The notes beneath the pieces are model-generated. The model searched no databases and was not told the origin of the DNA. It saw only the letters and a program-made list of their open reading frames with translations. Both the position numbers and the translations under genes were made by a program. A DNA stretch of 64,000 nucleotides, taken from the NCBI RefSeq assembly GCF_002028405.1, contig NZ_CP020046.1, positions 2,294,001 through 2,358,000 of the forward strand, written 5' to 3'. Positions within the stretch are counted from its first letter, which is position 1. The number at the start of each line of letters is the position of its first letter. The DNA comes from Thiomonas intermedia. Its GTDB lineage: Bacteria; Pseudomonadota; Gammaproteobacteria; Burkholderiales; Burkholderiaceae_C. Shown here in pieces: positions 40,997-53,944 of this stretch.

Positions 40997-41146
40997 ACAC
41001 GTCACGGTGTGGGTGGGGAGGCGCTTACGCGGACTGCGCGCAGCGTTGTCTCCTCCTCCCCTACCCTGTGCGGGAGGGGCAAGCCGGAGGTCGCGCGCAG
41101 CGCCGTTCTCACCTCCCCCACATCGTGGGGGAGGGCGGGAGGGGGA
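40955..41146. repeat. Family B hairpin repeats (CTCCC...GGGAG)
   Basis: At least three hairpin units of the form CCTCCCC-loop-GGGGAGG lie between the DUF255 gene and lapA, separated by the spacer GCTTACGCGGACTGCGCGCAGCG. The first (40955-40993) is inside the coding sequence and supplies its stop codon. The last ends one base before the lapA stop codon. The same spacer and hairpins form the tandem array at 45442-45775. Confidence 0.85.
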
Positions 41147-42748: not shown

Positions 42749-43510
42749 TCACAGTCCGGTGAACCGGCTGACGACGCGGAAATACAGCCCGCGCGGCAGC
42801 AGGCGCAGCAGTTTGAGCCACAGGGTGAAGCGGCGCGGGAAGTGGATGTCGAAGCGCCCCGCCTCCAGTCCGGCCAGGATGGCGTCAGCCGCCTGCTCGG
42901 GGCTGATGAGCGCGGGCATGGCAAACGTGTTCTGCGCCGTCAGCGGGGTTTCGACGAAGCCCGGATTGATCACATGCACCCCGACGCCCTGCGGATGCAG
43001 ATCGAGATAGAGCGTTTCGGCAAGGTTGATCAGCGCCGCCTTGGTCGGGCCGTAGGCGAGCGCCTGCGGCAATCCGCCCAGGCCGGCCACGCTGCTGACG
43101 AGGGCGATATGGCCCGAGCGCTGGGCGTTGAAGACCGGCAGCGCCGCATCCAGCGCGTGCAGCGCACCGCGGTAGTTCACGTCGTCGTGCTGCAAGGCCG
43201 CGGCTAGGTCGAAGGCGGCGGCGCGCATGGGCCGGTAGGTGCCTGCGCAATACAGCAGCAGGTCGAGACCGCCCCAGGCGTGCTGCAGGGTCTGCATGGC
43301 GGCGTGCAGCGCCGGCGCATCGGTCACGTCCAGGGGAAGGGCCAGGGCGCCCTCGATGTGCTGCAAGGCCTGGGCATTGCGTGCCGACACGGCCACCCGG
43401 GCGCCGCGCCGCAGCAGCGCATCGGCGCAAGCGCGGCCGATGCCGGTGGACGCGCCGATCACCCACACGCGGCGGCCCTTCCAGCCGTCGATGCGCGGGT
43501 TCAGACTCAT
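42749..43510 (-). CDS. Short-chain dehydrogenase of the CFA/DUF3833 cluster
   Basis: A 253-residue SDR. The cofactor turn IGASTGIGRACADALL, catalytic Ser in VSSVAGLGG and YGPTK Tyr-Lys pair are intact. The C-terminal HVINPGFVETPLTAQN fits a classical SDR acting on lipophilic substrates. I choose the ATG at 43510 (MSLNPRIDG), which gives a four-base overlap with the DUF3833 gene. It is the last gene of a nine-gene minus-strand run that includes a CFA-synthase-like enzyme and a FAD oxidoreductase, so a fatty-acid or lipid substrate is likely but unproven. Confidence 0.88.
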   Translation of the reverse strand: MSLNPRIDGWKGRRVWVIGASTGIGRACADALLRRGARVAVSARNAQALQHIEGALALPLDVTDAPALHAAMQTLQHAWGGLDLLLYCAGTYRPMRAAAFDLAAALQHDDVNYRGALHALDAALPVFNAQRSGHIALVSSVAGLGGLPQALAYGPTKAALINLAETLYLDLHPQGVGVHVINPGFVETPLTAQNTFAMPALISPEQAADAILAGLEAGRFDIHFPRRFTLWLKLLRLLPRGLYFRVVSRFTGL

Positions 43511-44085
43511 GGCTTGTGGAAGGACAGGAACACGCTGCCCACCTTGAAGCCGAACTTGGTGATGACCGAATGGTTGAGCAGCACATGGTCGTCCATCAGG
43601 TACATCCAGTCGTCGAGCTGCACGTGATAGATCGTGCCATCGACCGGCAGCGCCAGGGTGTAGTGCCAGTTCAGCGCGTTGCCCGCCGCGCGGCCGATGG
43701 CCTCGCCGATCACATCGCCCGCGGTACCGACGTAGCGCTTCTCGCCGTCTTTCTCCGGCAGCTCGCGGAGGGTCCAGATGCGCTCCTGCTTGGCGCCGTC
43801 GTGGTAGACGAAGTGCTCGTCGAGCGTGCCCACGTCGCCCTTCCACGAGGCGTCGATGGTGACGTGAAAACGCCGCGTCATCTTGCCCGAGCGGTCGAAC
43901 ACGATGCCCACCGCCGTGAGCCGTCCGTTGAAATACTGCTTGAGATCGAGCGCGGGCGTCTGCCCGCGGTAGGCCAGCGGCGTGACATTGGCGCAGCCCG
44001 ACAGCAGGCTGATGCCCAGAACGGCGGCCAGCAGCCAGCCACGGCGGAAGGACAGCCAGGAACGCAAAGCAAAAAAGGACGACAT
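43507..44085 (-). CDS. DUF3833 lipoprotein
   Basis: A 192-residue protein. The signal peptide ends in the lipobox LLSGC (Cys 31). The body has the DUF3833 pattern, including QYFNGRLTAVGIVFDRSGKM and the WHYTLALPVDGTIYHVQLDDW segment. DUF3833 genes sit next to CFA-synthase-like genes in many proteobacteria. Members resemble lipocalin-type beta folds and may bind lipid at the membrane. I use the ATG at 44085 (MSSFFAL) because GGAGAG lies seven bases upstream. An ATG five codons earlier would place that site inside the gene. It overlaps the SDR gene by four bases. Confidence 0.87.
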   Translation of the reverse strand: MSSFFALRSWLSFRRGWLLAAVLGISLLSGCANVTPLAYRGQTPALDLKQYFNGRLTAVGIVFDRSGKMTRRFHVTIDASWKGDVGTLDEHFVYHDGAKQERIWTLRELPEKDGEKRYVGTAGDVIGEAIGRAAGNALNWHYTLALPVDGTIYHVQLDDWMYLMDDHVLLNHSVITKFGFKVGSVFLSFHKP

Positions 44086-44100
44086 GGGACCACTCTCCAT

Positions 44101-45402
44101 TCAGGAAGCCAAGGGAGCCGCGCCTGACCGTGCACGCACAAAAAAGTGCCAGAGCAGACCGGCGGAAGCAAGTTTGAGCATCGAGGGCAGCAGGCAGTAC
44201 GCCACCACCAGCGGCGGCAGCGTGCCGGTTTCAATCGTGCCCGGCCGGTAGCCGAACAGCGCCAGCAGCGGCAGGGCCAGCCCCGCAGCCAGTGCGAGAT
44301 TGAGCTTGGTCGCAAAGTTCCACAACCCGAAGTAACTGCCTTCGAGGCGGTTGCCGTGGCCGCCCTCGCGTATGACCCCGGCCAGCAGGGCCGGCGGCAT
44401 CACCAGATCGGGGCCGAGCGCCGCGCCCGACAGCACCACCACCACCGCATAGCCCCAGCGATCACCCGGCTGCAGCAGCGCGGCCCAGACGAAGGCGGTC
44501 ACCGCCAGCGCCATGCCGACCAGCCAGCAGCGTGCCGCGCCAAAGCGCCGCACCGCGCGCAGCCAGGCCGGCACCAGCAGGCCGGCCGCGGCGAAATAGG
44601 CGAACAGATAGACCCCAGCGAGCACCGCCGCGTCGAGCCGGTCGCGGATGAAGAACAGCACCAGCGTGGCCGGAATCGCCGCCGCGATGCCACTGGTGAC
44701 GAAAACGGCGAGCAGGGCCACGAAGCGCCGGTTGTGCAGCGGCTCCAGCAGCGTGCGCCAGTGCAGCACGGACCTGGCCGCGTGGTGCGGCGCGGGTTCG
44801 GGCGCGCGCCACATCAGCGCGAGTCCGGCCAACAGGGCGAAGGCGAACACGACGACCAGCGCCCTGGCGCCCCCCAGTTGGGGCACCAGGGCCGCCAGCA
44901 GCACCCCGGCCAGCCCCAGACCCTCGCGCCAGGCCACGGTGCGGGCCAGTTGTGCCTCGTCAGCGCCCAGCGTGGCTCCCCAGGCCTGGTGCACGATGGA
45001 CGCCGCGCTGAAGCCCAGATAGGTGAGCAACAGTGCGCCGACGAACGCCAGCGTGAACGCGCCGCTTTCATCGCCGAAGGGCAGCAGCGCGGGCAAGGCG
45101 AACAGCGCGGCAAAGCCGATGAACATCAGCACGCAGGCGGCGATCAGCGCGGGTTTGGCCTGGCCGCGCCGCAGCAGATGATCGGCCAGCCGTCCCAGCC
45201 AGGGGTCGAACAGCGCGTCGGCAAAGCGGGTGATCAGCAGCACCGCCCCGAGGTAGCCCAGCGGCACCGCGTAGCGCGTGGCGTAATGCTCCGGCAGATA
45301 CACATAAAGCGGCAGGGCGACGAAGGCGAACGCCAGACTGGGAGCCCCGTAGCGCAATAGCGCGAGCGAGCCCGTGCTCGGGGCAGTCCGGCACTCTCTC
45401 AT
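44101..45402 (-). CDS. MFS transporter, GPH (MelB-like) family
   Basis: A 433-residue membrane transporter with about twelve helices. The N-terminal RFADALFDPWLGRLAD is the MelB/GPH-type loop 2-3 signature with the cation-binding Asp residues. Transporters of this subgroup occur with CFA-synthase-like, DUF3833 and chalcone-isomerase-like genes in other proteobacteria. The substrate is unknown, and an export role for lipid-derived products is only a guess. I place the start at 45402 (MRECRTAP), because the upstream frame is translated repeat. The DUF3833 gene follows within 15 bases. The gap on its 5' side is filled with the family B array. Confidence 0.87.
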   Translation of the reverse strand: MRECRTAPSTGSLALLRYGAPSLAFAFVALPLYVYLPEHYATRYAVPLGYLGAVLLITRFADALFDPWLGRLADHLLRRGQAKPALIAACVLMFIGFAALFALPALLPFGDESGAFTLAFVGALLLTYLGFSAASIVHQAWGATLGADEAQLARTVAWREGLGLAGVLLAALVPQLGGARALVVVFAFALLAGLALMWRAPEPAPHHAARSVLHWRTLLEPLHNRRFVALLAVFVTSGIAAAIPATLVLFFIRDRLDAAVLAGVYLFAYFAAAGLLVPAWLRAVRRFGAARCWLVGMALAVTAFVWAALLQPGDRWGYAVVVVLSGAALGPDLVMPPALLAGVIREGGHGNRLEGSYFGLWNFATKLNLALAAGLALPLLALFGYRPGTIETGTLPPLVVAYCLLPSMLKLASAGLLWHFFVRARSGAAPLAS

Positions 45403-45441
45403 GGTGCGTTCAGGGTTCTGGCAGGGTGTGGCTTGAGACGG

Positions 45442-45775
45442 CACCTCCCCACCCCGGCCCTCCCCACGGGTGGGGAGGGAGCAAAGACGGCACCTCCCCC
45501 AGTGCGTAGGGGGCTGGGAGGGCTTACGCAGATCACGCACAGCGCCTTCTACTTCCCCCCGCCTTGTGGGGAGGCGTGGAGGGCTTACGCAGATTGCGCG
45601 CAGCGCTTTCTCCTCCTCCCTCGTCTTGTGGGAGAGGCTGGGAGGGCTTACGCAGATTGCGTACAGCGCTTTCTCCTCCTCCCTCGTCTTGTGGGAGAGG
45701 CTGGGAGGGCTTACGCAGATTGCGCGCAGCGCTTTCTCCTCCTCCCCCACCTTGTGGGGGAGGCTGGGAGGGGGA
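45442..45775. repeat. Family B tandem hairpin array (main content of a 422-base gap)
   Basis: No gene lies between 45403 and 45824. Tandem units begin with GCTTACGCAGATTGCGCGCAG at 45522, 45583, 45646 and 45709 (spacing 61, 63 and 63). Each carries a hairpin of the form CTCCTCCCTC-GTCTTGTG-GGAGAGG. Two further hairpins with the same arms precede them from 45442. The units at 45583, 45646 and 45709 are almost identical. The array sits inside the minus-strand CFA gene run, between the chalcone-isomerase-like gene and the MFS gene, so readthrough RNA would contain at least five stem-loops. Confidence 0.9.
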
Positions 45776-45824
45776 GCCCTTGCATGGCGTGGCCCATGAA
45801 ACCTTCATCCTGTTCATCTCCGGG

Positions 45825-46427
45825 TCATGGGGATGCCGACGCCCTGGCCAGCAGCGCCTTGCGCAGATCGGGCGCAGGCGTTTGGGGCGACAGCCAGATG
45901 GAGAAGAACGCCCGGGCGAAGGCCGTGCCGCCCTCGGCACCGCGCAGGGCGCCGTTGAAGTAGAAGCGCGACTGTGCCGGTGCAGCGCCCGCTGGGGTGA
46001 ACACGCCGGTCAGGGTATCGCCTTCGGCTACGTCGGGAAACAGGCGCTGCATGGCCTGCAGCCAGGCGCTGCGCTGCTGCGGCCCGCCTTCACCGAGCTT
46101 GCGCATTTCTTCCTCCGAACGCGCTGCGATGTCGGCGCCCTTGAGGCTGCGGGCATAGCGCAGTTGCAGGGCGAAAGGGGCGTCGCCCAGTTCCGCGCCC
46201 AGCCCCTGGGGTCCGACCCAGAGCGTGGCGCGATAGACGAGAAAGCCGAAGTAGCGAAACTCGCCACTGCCCGAGAGCCGCGCCCCGGCCATCTCGGCGC
46301 GCACCTCCTCGGGGATGTCCGCCGCTGTTTGCGCCAGCACGGGCAGGGGCAGGGCCGTGGCCGTCGCGGCCAGCAGCAGGTGGCGACGCGTCAGGCCACG
46401 GCGGCTGCGTTCAGCGTGGGCGGGCAT
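45825..46427 (-). CDS. Chalcone isomerase-like (CHI_2) exported protein
   Basis: A 200-residue protein. The N-terminus RRGLTRRHLLLAATATALPLPVLA is an export signal with Tat-like arginines. The mature part matches the bacterial chalcone-isomerase-like domain (GEFRYFGFLVYRATLWV, FALQLRYARSLKGADIA, FNGALRGAEGGTAFARAFFSIWL). This domain binds fatty acids in relatives. No flavonoid chemistry is implied. It overlaps the CFA-synthase gene by 17 bases and belongs to the same run. The DUF2878 gene often found at this place in other species is absent. Confidence 0.83.
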   Translation of the reverse strand: MPAHAERSRRGLTRRHLLLAATATALPLPVLAQTAADIPEEVRAEMAGARLSGSGEFRYFGFLVYRATLWVGPQGLGAELGDAPFALQLRYARSLKGADIAARSEEEMRKLGEGGPQQRSAWLQAMQRLFPDVAEGDTLTGVFTPAGAAPAQSRFYFNGALRGAEGGTAFARAFFSIWLSPQTPAPDLRKALLARASASP

Positions 46428-47682
46428 GGCGCAGGGTGAACTGCCACACGTTGGTCGAGCCCTGGCTGAAGCCGGCTTCGCAATAGGCGAGGTAGAAGGT
46501 CCACAGCCGCACGAAGCGATCGTCGAAACCCTGGGTGCGAACGGCGTCGAGTTGGGCCGTGAAGCGCTCGCGCCACAGGGCCAGGGTGCGGGCATAGTCG
46601 GGGCCGAAGGCCAGTTCCTCGACAACTTCCAGCCCGGCGGCCTCGGCCTGGGCCATGAAGGCCGCGCGCGAGGGCAGCATGCCGCCGGGAAAGATGTAGC
46701 GCTGGATGAAGTCGGTGCCGCGACGGTAATCGTCGAACAGATCGTCGGCGATGGTGATGGTCTGGATGCAGGCGCGGCCACCGGGCTTGAGATGGCGCGA
46801 CAAGGTGCGGAAAAAACCCGGCCAGTACGCCTCGCCCACGGCCTCGAACATCTCGATGGAGGCCACGCCGTCATAGCCCTCGGGCGGGGCGAGGCGGTCG
46901 AGGTCGCGGTAGTCGCACAGTTCCAGCCGCGCCTGGGGGAGGGCGTTCGCGAGCCGGTCGCGGGCGTAGTCGAGCTGTTCGGTGGACAGGGTGATGCCGT
47001 CCATGTGCAGGCCGCGCTGCTGGCCTGCCTCGGCCAGTCCGCCCCAGCCGCAGCCGATCTCGAGCACGCGTGCGCCTGGCTGAAGTTGCAACTGGTCGAG
47101 CACGCGGCCGTACTTGGCGTTCTGGGCCTGCTCCAGCGTCTGCGCGGCATGGCCGCTGAACAGGGCGCTGGAATAGGTCATGCCCGGGTCGAGCCAGAGA
47201 CGATAGAAGGCGTTGCCGATGTCGTAGTGCGCGTGGATGTTGTCGCGGCTCCCGGCACGGCTGTTGCGGCGCAGAAGGTGCCGGATGCGGTCGGGCAGCC
47301 GGCCCAGCAGGCTGCCGTGCAGGGCGCGGGCGATGATGTCGCGGTTGGCGGCCAGCAGTTCGAGCAGGGCGGGCAGATCGGGCGTGTCCCAGGCGCGCCG
47401 CGTCCAGGCCTCGGCGAAGGCCATATCGCCGCGCCGCAGCACCTCGCCCATCACGCGCCAGTCGTGCAGGGTGACTTCGACGTGCGGGCCCTGGGTGTCG
47501 TGGCCGAAGTGGCGCCAGATGCCGTCCGGCCCGTGCAGATCGAGTCGGCCGATCTGCAGGCGCTCGAGCAGACGCATCACGCCGCGCGCGGCCAGCGGCG
47601 GGGGGCGCCGCCGGGTGCCGACGACGGCCACGCCGGAGGACACGGGGGAAAGCGGGGAGAGGGTGCGGTGGCGGGCGCTCAT
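46411..47682 (-). CDS. Cyclopropane-fatty-acid-synthase-like SAM methyltransferase
   Basis: A 423-residue enzyme of the CFA synthase family, which transfers a methyl group from SAM to unsaturated acyl chains of membrane phospholipids. An N-terminal domain (about 1-130) precedes HYDIGNAFYRLWLDPGMTYSSALF, the SAM-binding motif VLEIGCGWGGLAEAG, and the active-site block VASIEMFEAVGEAYWPGFF. The C-terminal WRERF ... WTFYLAYCEAGF is also typical. Its neighbours (FAD oxidoreductase, DUF1365, chalcone-isomerase-like) match gene sets linked to modified or furan fatty acids, so the product may differ from a plain cyclopropane. Start and stop overlap both neighbours (ATGA at 47679-47682). Confidence 0.92.
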   Translation of the reverse strand: MSARHRTLSPLSPVSSGVAVVGTRRRPPPLAARGVMRLLERLQIGRLDLHGPDGIWRHFGHDTQGPHVEVTLHDWRVMGEVLRRGDMAFAEAWTRRAWDTPDLPALLELLAANRDIIARALHGSLLGRLPDRIRHLLRRNSRAGSRDNIHAHYDIGNAFYRLWLDPGMTYSSALFSGHAAQTLEQAQNAKYGRVLDQLQLQPGARVLEIGCGWGGLAEAGQQRGLHMDGITLSTEQLDYARDRLANALPQARLELCDYRDLDRLAPPEGYDGVASIEMFEAVGEAYWPGFFRTLSRHLKPGGRACIQTITIADDLFDDYRRGTDFIQRYIFPGGMLPSRAAFMAQAEAAGLEVVEELAFGPDYARTLALWRERFTAQLDAVRTQGFDDRFVRLWTFYLAYCEAGFSQGSTNVWQFTLRHARPR

Positions 47683-48479
47683 GATCGGCTCACAAAGGGG
47701 TCGGGAGGGAGGGGCTTGGCATGGAAGGGCACACGCTTGCGCCACAGCTTGAACGCCTGCCAGTGAATGCGTGCCATCACGCCAAAGCTGTGCAGCGGGT
47801 GGCGCAGCAAGGCCATGCGGGCGCGCGCGGCGGTGAGCGGCGTCAGTGCGCCGCTGAGGCTGGTCTCGATGAGCGGGCCGGCGTCGTCGTCGTGGTCGAT
47901 GCGCAGGACGAGGCGCGCGGGCGTGGTCGTCGTGCTGCGCAGAAAGCGAAACCGGTAGCTGCCTTCGACCGTGCAGAACGGCGAGACGTGGAACACCTTG
48001 CGGGCGCTGTATGGCGCGCCCCACTGCAGATGGTCGCAGCCCGGATCGGGGGTGAGCAGGTAGCAGTGGCGTTCGCCGAAGGTGTTGTTCACTTCGGCCA
48101 CGGCGCAGCGCAGGCTGCCGTCGGCGCGTTCGCAATACCAGAGGCTCACGGGCTTGAAGGCATAGCCCCAGAGCCGCGGGAAGGTCTGCAGCCAGATCTC
48201 GCCGTCGGCGTCGGCAAGGCCTTCGGCCGCCAGCAGGGATTCGAGCCAGGCCAGGCTGTCGCCGCGGCCGTCGCCGTGATCGGCATCGTAAAAACTCATG
48301 GCGCCGAAGCGGTTGCGGGCGATGGGCAGCAGCGTGGCGTCGCGGGCCAGGCTGCGCATGGGCAGCAGCAGAAACATCGCGCGATAGCTGAACGCATGCG
48401 TCGTCGGCCGCAGGCGGCGGTGCCGCACCGGACCGCTGCCCAGAAGCGGGCGGTTCGGCGCGGCGTCGGCAGTGGCCAT
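47679..48479 (-). CDS. DUF1365 protein
   Basis: A 266-residue protein. The N-terminal GPVRHRRLRPTTHAFSYRAMF, the FGAMSFYDADHGDG block, LWGYAFKPVSLWYC and KVFHVSPFCTVEGSYRF are hallmarks of DUF1365. The family is nearly always encoded next to a FAD amine-oxidase-like protein and a CFA-synthase-like enzyme, and no reaction has been proved for it. The ATG at 48479 has GAAGG nine bases upstream. A GTG at 48494 that overlaps the previous stop (GTGA) is an alternative and would fit the coupling seen in the rest of the run. Confidence 0.9.
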   Translation of the reverse strand: MATADAAPNRPLLGSGPVRHRRLRPTTHAFSYRAMFLLLPMRSLARDATLLPIARNRFGAMSFYDADHGDGRGDSLAWLESLLAAEGLADADGEIWLQTFPRLWGYAFKPVSLWYCERADGSLRCAVAEVNNTFGERHCYLLTPDPGCDHLQWGAPYSARKVFHVSPFCTVEGSYRFRFLRSTTTTPARLVLRIDHDDDAGPLIETSLSGALTPLTAARARMALLRHPLHSFGVMARIHWQAFKLWRKRVPFHAKPLPPDPFVSRS

Positions 48480-48490
48480 GGTGTCCGCCT

Positions 48491-49795
48491 TCACGCCGCC
48501 AGGGCGCGGTGCGCGGGTTGGGCGTCCACGTCGGACATCAGGGCCTGCGCCGCATCAAGGCCCGATTTCAGGCCGTCTTCATGAAAGCCATAGCCGCACC
48601 AGGCGCCGCAGAAATAGCTGTGCTGCCGCCCCTGAAGGGCCGGTACGCGCTGCTGCGCGGCGATCGCGGCCTGATCGAAAATGGGATGGGCATAGTCGAT
48701 CTCGCGCAGCACCGTGTGCTGCGCCGGTTCGCGCAGCGGGTTGAGCGAGACCACGATGGGACGCTGCGTGGGCAGCGGCTGCAGCTTGTTGAGCAGGTAG
48801 TGCAGACACACGGTGGGGGCCTGGTCGCCATGTGCCGGGCCGCTTTCGTAATTCCACGCCGCCCAGGCGCGGCGCGCGCGCGGCAGCAGGCTGGTGTCGG
48901 TATGCAGCAGGGCGCGATTGGGCTGGTAGCGTATCGCGCCGAGCACCTCGCGCTCGTCCTGGCTGGGCGCATCGAGCAGGGCCAGGGCCTGGTCGCTGTG
49001 GCAGGCAAAGATCACCCGGTCGAACCAGATCGGGCCTTCATGGGTGTGCACCTCGACGCCGTCGTCGTGCCGCGTCACCCGCTGCACCGGGGTGCGCAGG
49101 CGCGCGTCGGGCAGTTGGGCGAGCATCTTCTGCACATACTGCCGGGCGCCGCCGCGCACGGTGAACCACTGGGGCCGGTTGTTGACTTGCAGCAGCCCGT
49201 GGTTGTCGCAGAAGCGCACCAGCGTGACCAGCGGAAAGTCGAGCATCTGGCCCGGGGGGCACGACCAGATGCAGGCGGTCATCGGCAGCAGATACCAGTG
49301 CAGAAACGGCTCGCCGTAGCCTTCGCGCCGCAGGTATTGGCCCACGGTGAGGGGGGGGTCGAGTTCGGCTTGGGGCCGCCGGGCCAGCGCCGTGGCTTCG
49401 CGGTTGAAGCGCAGGATGTCGCGCAGCATGCGCCAGAAGGCGGGCCGCGTCAGGTTGCGCCGCTGGGCGAAAACGGTGTCCAGACTGGAGCCGCTCCATT
49501 CCAGGGCGTTGCCGCCGGGCAGCGGGGTCTGCACCGAGAACGACATGTCGGAAGTCGCCAGCGGGACGTTCAGCTCGGCGAACAGCGCCTGCAGCCGAGG
49601 GTAGGTGCGCTCGTTGAGCACGAGAAAGCCCGTGTCCACGGCGAAGGGCATTTCGCCGGGCAGATCGACATCCACCGTGTGGGTATGGCCGCCGAAATGC
49701 GAGCCGGCCTCGAACAGCGTGATCTGGGCGTGATGGCGCAGGGCCCACGCCGCCCCGAGGCCTGAAATACCGGTTCCGATGATGGCAATGCGCAT
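48491..49795 (-). CDS. FAD-dependent amine oxidase-like oxidoreductase
   Basis: A 434-residue flavoprotein. The N-terminal dinucleotide fold reads IAIIGTGISGLGAAWALRHH, the FAD-contact ETGGR-equivalent is AGSHFGGHTHTVDVD, and VDTGFLVLNERTYP is typical of this subgroup. The C-terminus SYFCGAWCGYGFHEDGLKSGLDAA closes the FAD site. Members next to CFA-synthase-like genes are thought to oxidise or desaturate fatty-acyl chains. It is followed directly by DUF1365 and preceded by folE2 within 21 bases. Confidence 0.92.
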   Translation of the reverse strand: MRIAIIGTGISGLGAAWALRHHAQITLFEAGSHFGGHTHTVDVDLPGEMPFAVDTGFLVLNERTYPRLQALFAELNVPLATSDMSFSVQTPLPGGNALEWSGSSLDTVFAQRRNLTRPAFWRMLRDILRFNREATALARRPQAELDPPLTVGQYLRREGYGEPFLHWYLLPMTACIWSCPPGQMLDFPLVTLVRFCDNHGLLQVNNRPQWFTVRGGARQYVQKMLAQLPDARLRTPVQRVTRHDDGVEVHTHEGPIWFDRVIFACHSDQALALLDAPSQDEREVLGAIRYQPNRALLHTDTSLLPRARRAWAAWNYESGPAHGDQAPTVCLHYLLNKLQPLPTQRPIVVSLNPLREPAQHTVLREIDYAHPIFDQAAIAAQQRVPALQGRQHSYFCGAWCGYGFHEDGLKSGLDAAQALMSDVDAQPAHRALAA

Positions 49796-49816
49796 GGTCT
49801 TGGCTCCCTGGCCGCG

Positions 49817-50632
49817 TCAGGGTTTGCGGCCTTCCACCAAGGCATACGCCGAATGGTTGTGGATGGATTCAAAGTTCTCCGATTCCACGGTGTAGGCGGC
49901 CACGCGTTCGTCGCGCTCCAGCGCCACCGCGACATCGCGCACCAGGTCTTCGACAAATTTGGGGTGGTCGTAGGCCCGCTCGGTGACGTACTTTTCGTCC
50001 GGCCGTTTGAGCAGGCCCCAAAGCTCGCAGGAGGCCGCCGTCTCGGCGATGCGGATCTGCTCGTCCAGCCCCAGATCGCCGCGCAGCGTGGCGCCGATGG
50101 TGACGTGCGAGCGCTGGTTGTGCGCGCCGTAATTGGAGATTTCCTTCGAGCACGGGCAAAGGCTGGTGACCGGCACTTGCACCTTCTGCACCAGCGTCGT
50201 CGCCCCGGCTTTTTGCTCCGCGCGCAGGGTGACCTCGTAGTCCATCAGACTCTCCACACCCGACACCGGCGCGGCCTTGCGCGCGAAGTAGGTGAAGCGC
50301 GCCGTGATGGCGCCCTCGCTGGCCTGCAGGCGCACCAGCATGTGCTGTAGCAGGATGCCGAGCTGCGGCGCATCGAGCGGTTCAGGGTGCGCTTCGAGCA
50401 TCTCGATGAAGCGCGACATGTGCGTGCCCTTCACCTCGGGCGGCAGCGCCACCGTCATCTCGAACGTGCCCACGCTGGGCTGCACGCCCTGCGCGGAACG
50501 GATCTGCACCGGGTAGCGCACATCGCGCACCCCGACCTGCTGAATGGCAATGTGGCGCAGGTCGGGTGTGGCCTGCACATCGGGCAGGGCGGCGGCTGCG
50601 GCCTGGGCAAACAGTTTTTCCGGTGCGTTCAT
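49817..50632 (-). CDS. folE2: GTP cyclohydrolase I, type IB (FolE2)
   Basis: A 271-residue metal-flexible GTP cyclohydrolase that makes 7,8-dihydroneopterin triphosphate for folate, tetrahydropterin and queuosine-type pathways. The metal-ligand Cys lies in [19 protein letters not shown], and other FolE2 blocks are [12 protein letters not shown] and [15 protein letters not shown]. It sits inside the run controlled from the CarH-like regulator region, between glutathione peroxidase and the FAD oxidoreductase. GTP cyclohydrolase genes are among light-induced genes in some pseudomonads (literature knowledge), perhaps to supply pterin or antioxidant needs. queC, at 59546, is another user of this product. 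Confidence 0.95.
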
Positions 50633-50689
50633 GGCGGGGCTTTCAAGGCGGGGTGGGGAAGGGTTGAGCCGAGGTGAAACCCAGGAGGA

Positions 50690-51286
50690 TCAGGGCTTCT
50701 GGGCAAGCAGGGCCTTGATCTTGGCGACGAAGTCCTTGTTGTCCGGCGAGGTCAGGCTGGGGTAGACGCCGGCGACCTTGCCGTCGCGCCCGATCAGGTA
50801 CTTGTAGAAGTTCCACTTGGGCTGATCGCCCGTGGCCAGGATGAGTTGTTCATACAGCGCGTTGGGCCGGGGCTCGGTCACATGCGAGGGCGCGAACATC
50901 GGAAACTGGACGTTGTAGGTGTCCTTGCAGAAGGCGGCGATCTTGGTGTTGTTGTCCATCTCCTGGTGGAAGTCGTTCGACGGAAATCCCAGCACCACCA
51001 GGCCCTGTTTGCCGTATTCGCGGTACAGCGCCTCCAGTCCCTTGTACTGCGGGGTGAAGCCGCAGTAGCTGGCGGTGTTCACGACCAGAATGACCTTGCC
51101 CGCGTACTGGCACAGGCTTTGCGGCTTGTCGTCCTGCAGCCGCGGGAAGGTCTTGTTGAGCAGGGCGGGGCAGGTGGCCGCGGTCGCCGGGGCTGATTCG
51201 GCGGCTGCGGCCGAAGGGGCGAACGCGAGAGAACCCGCCACACACATCATGGCGGCGAACAGGCGGAAGGGGGCGGACACAGACAT
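50690..51286 (-). CDS. Exported glutathione peroxidase (Cys type)
   Basis: A 198-residue peroxidase. A signal peptide (about 1-29, SAAAAES) is followed by the glutathione-peroxidase fold. The peroxidatic residue is Cys 75 in NTASYCGFTPQYKGLEAL, not selenocysteine. GFPSNDFHQEM supplies the Gln-equivalent region and WNFYKYLIGRDG the catalytic Trp-Asn. An extra pair of Cys (about 39 and 59) lies near the N-terminus. The ATG at 51286 is preferred over the TTG two codons earlier. It is the first gene of the minus-strand run. The nearest palindrome (51312-51324) lies 26 bases upstream of its start, so it is probably directly controlled by the divergent CarH-like regulator. Confidence 0.92.
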   Translation of the reverse strand: MSVSAPFRLFAAMMCVAGSLAFAPSAAAAESAPATAATCPALLNKTFPRLQDDKPQSLCQYAGKVILVVNTASYCGFTPQYKGLEALYREYGKQGLVVLGFPSNDFHQEMDNNTKIAAFCKDTYNVQFPMFAPSHVTEPRPNALYEQLILATGDQPKWNFYKYLIGRDGKVAGVYPSLTSPDNKDFVAKIKALLAQKP

Positions 51287-51311
51287 GGACAATTCCGATC
51301 ATGGTTGAGTT

Positions 51312-51324
51312 TTGTCTAGGACAA
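51312..51324. promoter_or_regulatory. Putative CarH/LitR operator 1
   Basis: TTGTCTAGGACAA, arms TTGTC/GACAA, 26 bases upstream of the glutathione peroxidase start. Bound regulator here would block RNA polymerase on the operon promoter. The match to operators 2 and 3 is direct; binding is inferred. Confidence 0.75.
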
Positions 51325-51364
51325 TGATGCTTGAGATCCTTGATGCTTCCAAGCGGATCACTCT

Positions 51365-51377
51365 TTGTCCTGGACAA
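51365..51377. promoter_or_regulatory. Putative CarH/LitR operator 2
   Basis: TTGTCCTGGACAA, a perfect palindrome with arms TTGTCC/GGACAA around a central T. It begins 53 bases from operator 1, about five helical turns, which would allow cooperative binding on one DNA face. The TTGTCC arm could also serve as a -35-like element. Confidence 0.75.
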
Positions 51378-51497
51378 TGGAGGGGTTATCAGGTTTTCGA
51401 CAGGCGGTCTTAATATGCCATTACGTCGGGTTCTCGGGAACGGATTCAGCCGCGTCACGCAGGCCCTGAACGTCAGGCATTTCGCCCCGGCCATCAT

Positions 51498-51510
51498 TTG
51501 TCCAGGACAT
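51498..51510. promoter_or_regulatory. Putative CarH/LitR operator 3
   Basis: TTGTCCAGGACAT ends 11 bases before the regulator start codon. Eleven of thirteen bases match operator 2. Its position suggests autoregulation of the regulator gene. Confidence 0.72.
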
Positions 51511-51521
51511 GACTTTTTTCG

Positions 51522-52535
51522 ATGAATGACCTCACTCTGAACCCCGCCCTGCCGCTCGGCATCGCTGCTGTGGAGCGCGACACCGGGATCGGCAAAGACA
51601 CGCTGCGGGTGTGGGAGCGACGCTATGGATTTCCGCAGCCCGAACGCAACGGCGCGGGCGACCGCCTGTATCCGGAGGCCCAGGTCGAGCGGTTGCGGCT
51701 GATCAGGCGTTTGCTCGATGTCGGGCATCGTCCGGCGCAGATCGTCGCGCTGCCCATCGAGCAGCTCGATGCCCTGGCGCGCGGCCGCGGCGTGTTGACC
51801 GATGCCACCGTGGCCCCCGGGGCCAGATCGGCCGCGCCGGAACCCGCCGACAGCCCCATGGTCAGCGCCTATCTCGCCCTACTCAAGCAGCACGACGCCG
51901 AACGGCTGCGCCGTGCCTTGCAGCAGGACGTCATGCGCATGGGGCTCGATCGTTTCGTCACCGAAGTCGTCGCTCCGCTCAACACCGGGGTCGGGTTGGC
52001 CTGGATGCGCGGCACGCTCGAAGTGTTCGAGGAGCATCTGTATGCCGAAGTCATCCAGCGTGTGTTGCGCAGCGCCATCGGTGCCGTTCCGCTGGGTGAG
52101 ACGGCGCAGTCACGACCCAAGGTGCTGATGACCACCGTGCCCCAGGAGCCGCATGTTCTGGGCCTGCTGATGGCCGAGGCCATGCTGGTGCTGGAGGGCT
52201 GCCGCTGCGTGCAACTCGGCGCGCAGCTTCCGCTGGGCGATATGTCGAGGGCGGTCCAGGCGCATGCGGCCGATGTGCTGGTGCTGAGCTTTTCGCCCCT
52301 GCTGCAGGCCGCGCAGGTGCTCGATGCCCTGGCGGAGCTGCGGGGCCGTCTGCCCGGGTCCATCGAGCTGTGGGTGGGCGGCTCCAACCCAGCGCTGCGC
52401 AAGCGTTTGCCCGATGGCGTGCGGGTGGCGAAGGCGCTGGGCGATCTGGGGCCCTGCGTGCACGACTGGCGCGAACGTCACCGCAGTCCGTCCACCACCG
52501 ATCTGCTGATGTCGAAACCTCAGTCGCGCGACTGA
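51522..52535 (+). CDS. MerR-family adenosylcobalamin photoreceptor regulator (CarH/LitR type)
   Basis: A 337-residue regulator. The N-terminal MerR winged helix (about 11-80) contains the family signature TLRVWERRYGFPQPERN. After a linker (about 90-110) comes the cobalamin-binding four-helix plus Rossmann unit. The upper-face motif W-x9-E-H is complete (W161, E171, H172), and the lower axial ligand motif E-x-H-x-x-G is present (E209, H211, G214). These are the defining residues of CarH/LitR photoreceptors, which bind operators as a B12-loaded tetramer in the dark and release them after light cleaves the Co-C bond. It is divergent from the antioxidant/lipid gene run, and three matching palindromes lie between. 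Its end overlaps convergent clcB by 16 bases. Confidence 0.93.
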   Translation: MNDLTLNPALPLGIAAVERDTGIGKDTLRVWERRYGFPQPERNGAGDRLYPEAQVERLRLIRRLLDVGHRPAQIVALPIEQLDALARGRGVLTDATVAPGARSAAPEPADSPMVSAYLALLKQHDAERLRRALQQDVMRMGLDRFVTEVVAPLNTGVGLAWMRGTLEVFEEHLYAEVIQRVLRSAIGAVPLGETAQSRPKVLMTTVPQEPHVLGLLMAEAMLVLEGCRCVQLGAQLPLGDMSRAVQAHAADVLVLSFSPLLQAAQVLDALAELRGRLPGSIELWVGGSNPALRKRLPDGVRVAKALGDLGPCVHDWRERHRSPSTTDLLMSKPQSRD

Positions 52536-53944
52536 TCGGGGTTGCGCGGGTTGAGGCCCTGCGGGGCGCCTTCGGTGTCGCCGGCCGGCGCTTCTGAGGC
52601 CGATTTGCGGCCTGTGATGGCCTCGAACAGGGAAGTCTTCGAGCCGCCCTGCTCTTTCAATCCCAACGCTTCCGCATACACCGAACGCTCGCGCAGCAGA
52701 CTGCCGACCACCGAGGCCACGACGCAGGCCGGCATGGCCGCGAGCACCACGTTGTAGTTGCGGGTGATCTCGAACACCATGATGGCCGACATGGCCGGAG
52801 CATGCGTGGTGGCGGCCAGCAGACTGCCCATGCCCACCAGCACCCAGAGCGCCTGCGCATGCGAGGCATCGCCCAGCAGCAGGGTGTGTTGCACCATCAG
52901 GCCAATGGCGCCGCCGAGCATGAGGGTGGGCGTGAGCACGCCGCCGGGAATGCCCGCCGCGCTGGCCGCCGTCACCGCGACGATGCGCAGCACGAACACC
53001 AGGGCCAGCGTGGACAGCGCCCAGTGATCGACCAGCATGGACTGCACCACGCTGTAGCCGTTGCCCCAGACCTCCGGGCGGATCATCGACAGCAGGCCGA
53101 TCAGCAGGCCCATCAGCCCCATGCGCAGCGGCAGAAAGCCGATCAGCGGCTGATAGCGTCGGCGCGCCGTATCGAGCAGCCACAGAAAGGCCGGGCCCAG
53201 CAGGCCCGCGAGCAGGCCGATGAACACCGCGTCGAGCAGGTCGGAAAAGCCCACGACCGGAATGACGTGCGACAGATACAGCGGCCCGGTGGCAAACAGC
53301 GCCTGGGTGGTGAGCTCCCCCATCACGGCGGCCACCAGCACGGCGGCGATCTCGCGCAGCGCCAGCCCGCCCAGAATGATTTCAGCGACGAACAGGGTGC
53401 CGGCGATCGGCGCGTGATAGGCGCCGGCAAAGCCCGCGGCGGCTCCGCAGGCCACGATGAGGCGGCGGTGCGCCGCGTCGGTCTTGGCCAGACGGCCCAG
53501 AAGCGACGACACCAGCGCCGCGAACTGGATCATGGTGCCTTCGCGGCCTATCGTGATGCCGCTGCTCACGCCCACCAGAGAGGACAGGGTGCGAGTCAGA
53601 TTCGGTCCCAGGGGCAGCATGCCATCGCCCACCCGCACCGCCTCCATGTATTCCGGTCCGCGTGGGCGCTTGATCCAGCGTTGCCCGGCCCACATGATCA
53701 AGCCGCCCAGCGTGGCCCCGGCTGCGGGAATGACCACCCTTGCCCACGAGGGCAGCCCCGTCGCGGCGGCGACCAGATGCTCCTGCTCCGAGTACAGGCG
53801 CATGATGGCGTACATCGCCTGGCGGAAGCCCCCGACCGCAATGGCCGAGACGAAGCCCACGGCGGCGCCGACCAGGGTCATGGGCACCATGGGATCGAGG
53901 TTCTGCCAGAACAGGCGCAGTCGGCCGAGCAATGCGGAAGTCAC
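52520..53944 (-). CDS. clcB: ClC-family chloride channel/transporter (ClcB-like)
   Basis: A 474-residue membrane protein of the ClC family. Selectivity-filter regions are visible: SSGITIGREGTMIQ corresponds to the GREGP segment with the gating Glu, and ASAAGIPGGVLTPTLMLGG to the GIPGG/GxFxP region. About ten to twelve hydrophobic helices are present. The C-terminal tail has no CBS domains. The missing Pro after GREG and the absence of CBS domains fit bacterial ClcB more than ClcA. Whether it works as channel or exchanger cannot be decided. It converges on the CarH-like gene with a 16-base overlap. Confidence 0.9.
   Translation of the reverse strand: MTSALLGRLRLFWQNLDPMVPMTLVGAAVGFVSAIAVGGFRQAMYAIMRLYSEQEHLVAAATGLPSWARVVIPAAGATLGGLIMWAGQRWIKRPRGPEYMEAVRVGDGMLPLGPNLTRTLSSLVGVSSGITIGREGTMIQFAALVSSLLGRLAKTDAAHRRLIVACGAAAGFAGAYHAPIAGTLFVAEIILGGLALREIAAVLVAAVMGELTTQALFATGPLYLSHVIPVVGFSDLLDAVFIGLLAGLLGPAFLWLLDTARRRYQPLIGFLPLRMGLMGLLIGLLSMIRPEVWGNGYSVVQSMLVDHWALSTLALVFVLRIVAVTAASAAGIPGGVLTPTLMLGGAIGLMVQHTLLLGDASHAQALWVLVGMGSLLAATTHAPAMSAIMVFEITRNYNVVLAAMPACVVASVVGSLLRERSVYAEALGLKEQGGSKTSLFEAITGRKSASEAPAGDTEGAPQGLNPRNPDQSRD

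Follow-up and report, generated by a model that had tools for sequence, protein, structure and literature searches.

The window analysed here, a 64,000-nucleotide stretch of Thiomonas intermedia DNA (contig NZ_CP020046.1, positions 2,294,001 to 2,358,000), carries on its minus strand, at 42749-51286, a run of nine genes that reads away from a gene for a LitR/CarH-type regulator. This run is probably a photo-oxidative defence operon that is repressed by the LitR/CarH-type protein, is induced by light, and makes a furan fatty acid. Furan fatty acids are singlet-oxygen scavengers, and their regulation is best known via the sigmaE/ChrR system. The evidence consists of the gene identities and their conserved order, the ligand residues and predicted fold of the regulator, and a conserved and phased operator; the enzyme chemistry and the CarH mechanism are carried over from published work on other bacteria and would apply here by analogy.

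We infer that light is the signal and that repression occurs by DNA binding at dyad-symmetric sites. In the dark, the LitR/CarH-type repressor loaded with adenosyl-B12 would occupy these dyads and silence the operon along with its own gene; light would break the adenosyl–cobalt bond, the repressor would release the DNA, and the operon would be expressed. UfaM would methylate cis-vaccenoyl chains of phospholipids, UfaD would desaturate them, and UfaO would insert oxygen; the resulting methylated furan fatty acid would scavenge singlet oxygen in the membrane. An exported glutathione peroxidase would clear peroxides, and FolE2 would supply pterin/folate.

The ufa-like genes and their probable lipid product

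All nine genes named in the initial annotation are present and read in one direction, and each assignment is backed by Pfam (Table 1). Three of them, encoding a flavin adenine dinucleotide (FAD)-dependent enzyme of the UfaD type, a DUF1365 protein of the UfaO type, and a CMAS-family protein of the UfaM type, are adjacent. In the Rhodobacter pathway, the methyl group is added to vaccenoyl chains by UfaM, the desaturation is the work of UfaD, and the DUF1365 protein UfaO introduces an O2-derived oxygen, which yields the methylated furan fatty acid (PMC7380195). When a Rhodobacter triple mutant was given UfaM, UfaD, and UfaO of R. palustris, these three were enough for the furan product to form (PMC7380195). 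As the Thiomonas genes match ufaD, ufaO, and ufaM by family, neighbourhood, and order, the earlier guess at a furan-type fatty acid is supported, and such an acid would be the lipid product here.

The CMAS domain is common to Cfa, and an enzyme of this family might yield cyclopropane or merely methyl-branched fatty acids, and not furan acids. We regard this as rather improbable, because the genes for UfaD and UfaO adjoin and overlap, because the enzyme, at 235 bits, falls well short of the 400 required by equivalog models for true Cfa, and because the order of the trio is kept in most relatives.

To the last point, a survey of the order (Burkholderiales) placed LitR homologues in 119 of 399 genomes (E 1e-30) and UfaO in 192 (E 1e-20). 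Both were found in 103 genomes, LitR alone in 16, UfaO alone in 89, and neither in 191. A total of 130 LitR places were found, and 120 regions were analysed after exclusion of the window's own and the nine weakest; some of these regions end at contig ends. The ufaD-ufaO-ufaM trio is carried by 87 of the 120 regions, and a part of it by five. The gene arrangement is thus not due to chance. By the same count, the run is not unusual. Glutathione peroxidase and folE2 are optional members: they accompany the trio in 32 and 31 of the 87 regions, respectively, and occur together in 13. Besides the window, 12 of the 120 regions show all nine genes in this order next to a divergent LitR gene.

The divergent regulator and its candidate operator

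The regulator contains a MerR DNA-binding domain (PF13411, E 1.4e-14) and B12 domains that score above their cut-offs (PF02607, 29.2 bits against 23; PF02310, 32.9 bits against 32.1). Its best relatives by sequence in the PDB are the Thermus LitR/CarH proteins (5C8D, 3WHP), and its closest named relatives are Thiomonas proteins that are 90% and 80% identical to it. The adenosyl-contact motif Wx9EH is intact at residues 161-172 (WMRGTLEVFEEH at 161), and the lower-ligand His is His211. The CarH lower-ligand consensus is D/ExHx2G/P-x41-SxT/V-x22-27-GG (PMC9304148); the regulator has EPHVLG-x41-SFS-x27-GG, with the His, the spacing, and the GG kept, and Ser in place of Thr/Val. Full-length CarH is the best Foldseek match (E 4.8e-17) of the AlphaFold model (predicted local distance difference test, pLDDT, 82.3; predicted template modelling score, pTM, 0.65). 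The whole-chain fit is loose (root-mean-square deviation 22 Å), with the domains differently placed, and the B12 region fits at 2.8 Å over 204 columns. Its domain content, its ligand residues, and the fold predicted for it mark this protein as a B12-type CarH/LitR.

These residues are conserved across 121 LitR homologues (the 120 survey loci and the window): in the alignment, 119 retain the Trp and 120 the Glu of Wx9EH, 119 have the His of the EH pair, and 118 have the ligand His. At the lower-ligand position, L156, L164, and L187 carry Ser, Arg, and Asp, respectively, instead of His and are candidates for B12-independent LitR homologues. The T. intermedia genome contains a match to the PduO-type cobalamin adenosyltransferase, and no match to the CobA/BtuR type was found in it.

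The control region between the glutathione peroxidase and regulator genes, at 51287-51521, contains three near-perfect 13-bp dyads, TTGTC-NNN-GACAA (Table 1). With up to two mismatches to TTGTCCWGGACAA, four matches occur in the whole window, vs. 0.5 expected, and with up to one mismatch, six places occur in the genome, three of which are those of the control region. A genome-wide LitR regulon was also considered, but it is unsupported, as 59 places with up to two mismatches compare with 49 in a backwards control.

Across the family, the dyad (up to one mismatch) was found within about 400 bp before the LitR match in 77 of the 121 homologues, whereas 62 (1.2%) of the 5115 control segments taken from these loci contain it. 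Among the 77 loci with a divergent ufaD, it is present in 63, or in 60 if measured from the first operon gene. For comparison, we took ufa operons from 20 genomes hand-picked across genera from the 89 with UfaO but no LitR at E 1e-30. The ufa trio is present at each of these 20 loci, and the dyad occurs at none of them between -450 and +30 of the first gene. This difference from the LitR loci gives Fisher P values of 5e-12 and 6e-11, which are overstated, the genomes being related, and it concerns operons that lack a close LitR, not the whole LitR family. One comparison locus (L218, 1807-2715) has a diverged B12-type MerR gene, which fell below the LitR search threshold, about 4.6 kb upstream of the ufa operon, and another (L217) has a weak partial match. 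The B12 domains and motifs of the regulator, together with this distribution of the dyad, support the initial proposal that a B12-type CarH/LitR protein controls the run through sites in the shared control region.

In ten loci, the LitR gene shares the strand of the operon and closes it, and there the dyad is found before ufaD and not before LitR: five of the ten have it with up to one mismatch and nine with up to two, three of them with the 53-bp spacing. In this second arrangement (L160, L162, L163, L166, L167, L172, L175, L179, L183, and L185), the dyad is often degenerate. The idea that same-strand LitR proteins use another operator was dropped in view of these counts.

The dyads are also regularly spaced. 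In all 35 pairs of neighbouring dyads no more than 110 bp apart, the distance is 52-53, 62-65, or 74-76 bp, corresponding to 5, 6, or 7 helical turns (phase test P 0.0015, with each distinct spacing counted once). Such spacing suggests that one oligomer may bridge both sites of a close pair. At the centre, 34 of 37 second-last sites have T and 27 of 37 last sites have A; therefore, the sites have polarity. In the direction of LitR, a -10-like hexamer follows at the right distance after 28-31% of 119 sites, vs. 0-13% at other offsets from -10 to 30, which hints at a family-wide overlap of the -35 element with the operator. Further peaks of 15-25% at offsets -14 to -11, which we think stem from the operator flanks, were observed, and a peak on the reverse strand probably reflects this AT-rich box in backward reading.

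Signal, rival controls, and continuity of the run

Several observations weigh against the reading of the run as a LitR-repressed, light-induced furan operon. The ufa assignment was made by family, neighbourhood, and order, and 28 of the 120 LitR regions lack any ufa gene within the part covered. At up to one mismatch, the dyad is missing before LitR in 44 of the 121 loci and in 14 of the 77 loci with a divergent ufaD. Seven more site pairs, 122-208 bp apart, show no clear phase; they include sites 2 and 3 of the control region, which are 133 bp apart. Neither a sigma-70 promoter nor the overlap of a -35 element with the operator was found in the control region of the window. The regulator scores 112.8 bits with the CarH equivalog NF052513, for which the cut-off is 400. 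Finally, light turns His132 of Thermus CarH into the upper ligand (PMC10442372), and the equivalent residue is Met in the regulator and His in none of the 121 homologues. According to the same paper, the H132A variant of CarH mostly stays tetrameric in light, although an earlier contrary report is cited there. Without His132, the light-state chemistry must therefore differ from that of Thermus CarH, or the signal is not light alone.

The absence of this His, together with the behaviour of H132A, is what would favour a regulator that senses the form of B12, the redox state, or oxygen, and not light. LitR would then bind adenosylcobalamin, but, lacking the His132 switch, it would not be dissociated by the loss of the adenosyl group, and the signal would be the adenosylcobalamin level or cobalt oxidation. 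This seems unlikely to us, as nearly all homologues retain an intact Wx9EH motif for adenosyl sensing, as the light-state His is described in 'many' and not in all myxobacterial CarH proteins (PMC9304148), and as the gene content is photo-oxidative. Moreover, photolyase or DPRP-type genes are present in 32 of the 120 LitR regions. As a cluster member in T. intermedia, a photolyase was rejected: the single PF03441 match of the genome lies about 51 kb off.

Equally, the operon might be under a sigmaE/ChrR singlet-oxygen system, as in Rhodobacter, with LitR as a bystander, since its gene content overlaps the conserved sigmaE-ChrR regulon. This we consider highly improbable. ChrR (TIGR02451) has no match in the genome (0 of 1; of 14 control genomes, Caulobacter alone matches), and the promoter motif in its Vibrio form, TGATC-N16-18-CGTAW, does not occur in the 64-kb window.

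Light-released repression by LitR remains our preferred reading. The initial annotation described the gene junctions as mostly overlaps of 4-17 bases. This applies to four of the eight: the FAD enzyme and DUF1365 genes (4 bp, with the GTG start of the latter; ATG at 48479 is an alternative), the DUF1365 and CMAS genes (4 bp), the CMAS and chalcone-isomerase-like genes (17 bp), and the DUF3833 and short-chain dehydrogenase (SDR) genes (4 bp). Of the others, the junction between the major facilitator superfamily (MFS) transporter and DUF3833 genes is abutting, and three have gaps: 57 bp between glutathione peroxidase and folE2, 21 bp between folE2 and the FAD enzyme gene, and 422 bp between the chalcone-isomerase-like and MFS genes. 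The last of these, which sets the final three genes apart from the rest, was overlooked in the initial annotation.

The 422-bp gap holds an array of 4.2 copies of a G+C-rich 63-bp repeat (45512-45772). A 201-base piece of the array has 46 matches in this one genome of 3.34 Mb, and the repeat resembles a dispersed extragenic repeat family; one match lies nearby, at about 41016-41146 of the window. In the four closely related loci in which both flanking genes were found (L017, L018, L019, and L021), the corresponding gap measures only 33-92 bp by match ends, which makes the array, and with it the 422-bp gap, look like a local insertion. A single transcript for all nine genes is therefore doubtful in this strain.

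It may be, although we lean against it, that the run forms two transcription units, in which the insertion cuts the MFS, DUF3833, and SDR genes off from LitR control. The dispersed repeat, absent in four of four relatives, and the fold z-score of the gap (-2.34) fit this arrangement. The gap, however, contains one weak terminator-like site, where 0.5 are expected, and no promoter-like site was found in it.

As for the remaining products, glutathione peroxidase is of the Cys type and, from an apparent signal peptide judged by eye in the translation, probably periplasmic. By eye, too, the chalcone-isomerase-like protein has a Tat-like signal, and DUF3833 has a lipobox, making it a probable lipoprotein. 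The AlphaFold model of UfaO (pLDDT 75.9, moderate) is beta-rich with a long C-terminal helix; it had no significant match in the PDB (best E 0.014), and the top rows were mostly lipocalin-like barrels. Beyond the regulator gene lies a gene for a ClC chloride channel (52520-53944, minus strand), which meets it tail-to-tail with a 16-bp overlap (52520-52535); this neighbour recurs in L017-L021.

Table 1. Features of the nine-gene run, its control region, and the divergent regulator gene (window positions).
Feature	Position	Strand	Basis or remark
Short-chain dehydrogenase (adh_short, SDR)	42749..43510	-	PF00106, E 2.4e-39
DUF3833 protein	43507..44100	-	PF12915, E 2e-65
MFS_2 transporter, GPH-like	44101..45402	-	PF13347, E 2.1e-44; TIGR00792, 75 bits, below cut-off
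Gap between chalcone-isomerase-like and MFS genes, 422 bp	45403..45824	.	Repeat array at 45512-45772
Chalcone-isomerase-like (Chalcone_3) protein	45825..46427	-	PF16036, E 5.8e-09 (computed on 45825-46415)
ufaM-like S-adenosylmethionine (SAM)-dependent fatty-acyl methylase (CMAS/Cfa family)	46411..47682	-	PF02353, E 1.3e-78 (computed on 46411-47766)
ufaO-like DUF1365 protein	47679..48494	-	PF07103, E 5.4e-76
ufaD-like FAD-dependent fatty-acyl desaturase (amine-oxidase-type)	48491..49795	-	PF01593, E 2.5e-20; role from family and adjacency to ufaO, as with RSP1091/RSP1090
folE2, GTP cyclohydrolase FolE2 (GCHY-1)	49817..50632	-	PF02649, E 1.4e-88; NF010200 above cut-off
Glutathione peroxidase (GSHPx), lead gene	50690..51286	-	PF00255, E 6.8e-27
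Candidate operator site 1, TTGTCTAGGACAA	51312..51324	.	25 bp upstream of glutathione peroxidase start
Candidate operator site 2, TTGTCCTGGACAA	51365..51377	.	53 bp (5 helical turns) from site 1
Candidate operator site 3, TTGTCCAGGACAT	51498..51510	.	Ends 11 bp before LitR start
LitR/CarH-type regulator, B12-binding region	51522..52535	+ (divergent)	Pfam, PDB relatives, motifs, predicted fold

Relation to known systems

We put forward, tentatively and as a reading that may well fail, that a widespread betaproteobacterial branch of B12-type LitR, which has neither His132 nor the tandem-direct-repeat operator and uses the dyads TTGTC-NNN-GACAA instead, has captured the furan module. If so, the photochemistry that follows adenosyl loss must differ from that of Thermus CarH, and the branch possibly reads light together with oxygen or B12 status. 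A B12-type repressor on furan genes would also mean that membranes are pre-armed by sensing light, not damage. The missing His132 tests how far the Thermus CarH mechanism generalises, and the conserved dyads suit a binding assay. Among the matches listed from the open-licence literature, we found no description of the dyad operator or of a link between betaproteobacterial B12-type LitR and furan genes, which does not show their absence from print.

The furan-fatty-acid module is found elsewhere under ChrR or under class II LitR with a LOV protein, and in some relatives, a TetR-type gene stands beside it. A divergent TetR-family gene adjoins the ufa operon in at least 6 of the 20 comparison operons without a strong LitR (six candidates tested, six confirmed: L207, L210, L211, L213, L214, and L216). 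As other regulators stand before the operon in relatives that lack a strong LitR match, the module offers a natural case of regulator exchange.

The overlap with the Rhodobacter RpoE/ChrR and Pseudomonas light regulons that the initial annotation pointed out is borne out by the relevant papers. In Rhodobacter sphaeroides, RSP1091-1087 encode UfaD, UfaO, a GPH symporter, a hypothetical protein, and an SDR (PMC7074977, Table 1, in which the first two are annotated as 'fatty acid synthesis' proteins), an order that recurs in the window, with a DUF3833 gene in fourth place. In the window, ufaM and the chalcone-isomerase-like gene are inserted after ufaO, and folE2 and glutathione peroxidase stand in front. 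The RSP1091-1087 genes, ufaM (RSP2144), and folE2 (RSP1852) all belong to the RpoE regulon (PMC7074977, Table 1); hence, the joining of a pterin enzyme to this set is not new. In Thiomonas, ufaM and folE2 are gathered with glutathione peroxidase in one run, and a B12-type MerR regulator takes the place of ChrR, for which no match was found in the genome. We count the products of the MFS, DUF3833, chalcone-isomerase-like, and SDR genes as conserved accessories. In Rhodobacter, no change in the fatty acid profile was detected after deletion of RSP1087, RSP1088, or RSP1089 (PMC7380195).

In Pseudomonas mendocina/putida, a LitR-family repressor of class II controls a light-induced polycistron of nine genes, including those for an SDR, an FAD oxidoreductase, and UfaM, and folE is light-responsive (PMC9758184). 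Unlike the B12-type regulator of the window, class II LitR is held not to bind B12, and a short LOV protein relieves its repression (PMC9758184). The operator of class II LitR is T(G/A)TACA-N12-TGTA(C/T)A (PMC9758184). As a candidate for the Thiomonas control region, this motif was rejected: no match with up to three mismatches was found in 51287-51521, and the 24 weak matches in the window (6.8 expected) are spread out, with none in that region. Class III LitR of Burkholderia multivorans belongs to the LitR family as well, and its C-terminus is described as differing from the known functional domain (PMC9758184).

CarH/LitR of Thermus thermophilus is known for carotenoid control. It shares with the regulator the MerR domain, the four-helix and Rossmann B12 domains, the Wx9EH motif, and the lower-ligand His (PDB 5C8D, 3WHP), but it has His132, which all 121 homologues lack. 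In known CarH operators, 11-bp direct repeats stand in tandem and include a TnnACA segment (PMC9304148); by eye, the dyad has this segment in common on one strand, whereas its layout is different. In the blue-light response of Vibrio cholerae, light induces a CMAS-family gene, and the MerR protein VCA0056 and ChrR/SigmaE both act (PMC5241685), whereas only the LitR type was found here.

The main ingredients of the Thiomonas system each have a published relative in Rhodobacter, Pseudomonas, Vibrio, or Thermus, and its layout is common in the order. It is set apart from them by the phased layout of the dyad operator and by the absence of His132 throughout the 121 regulators.

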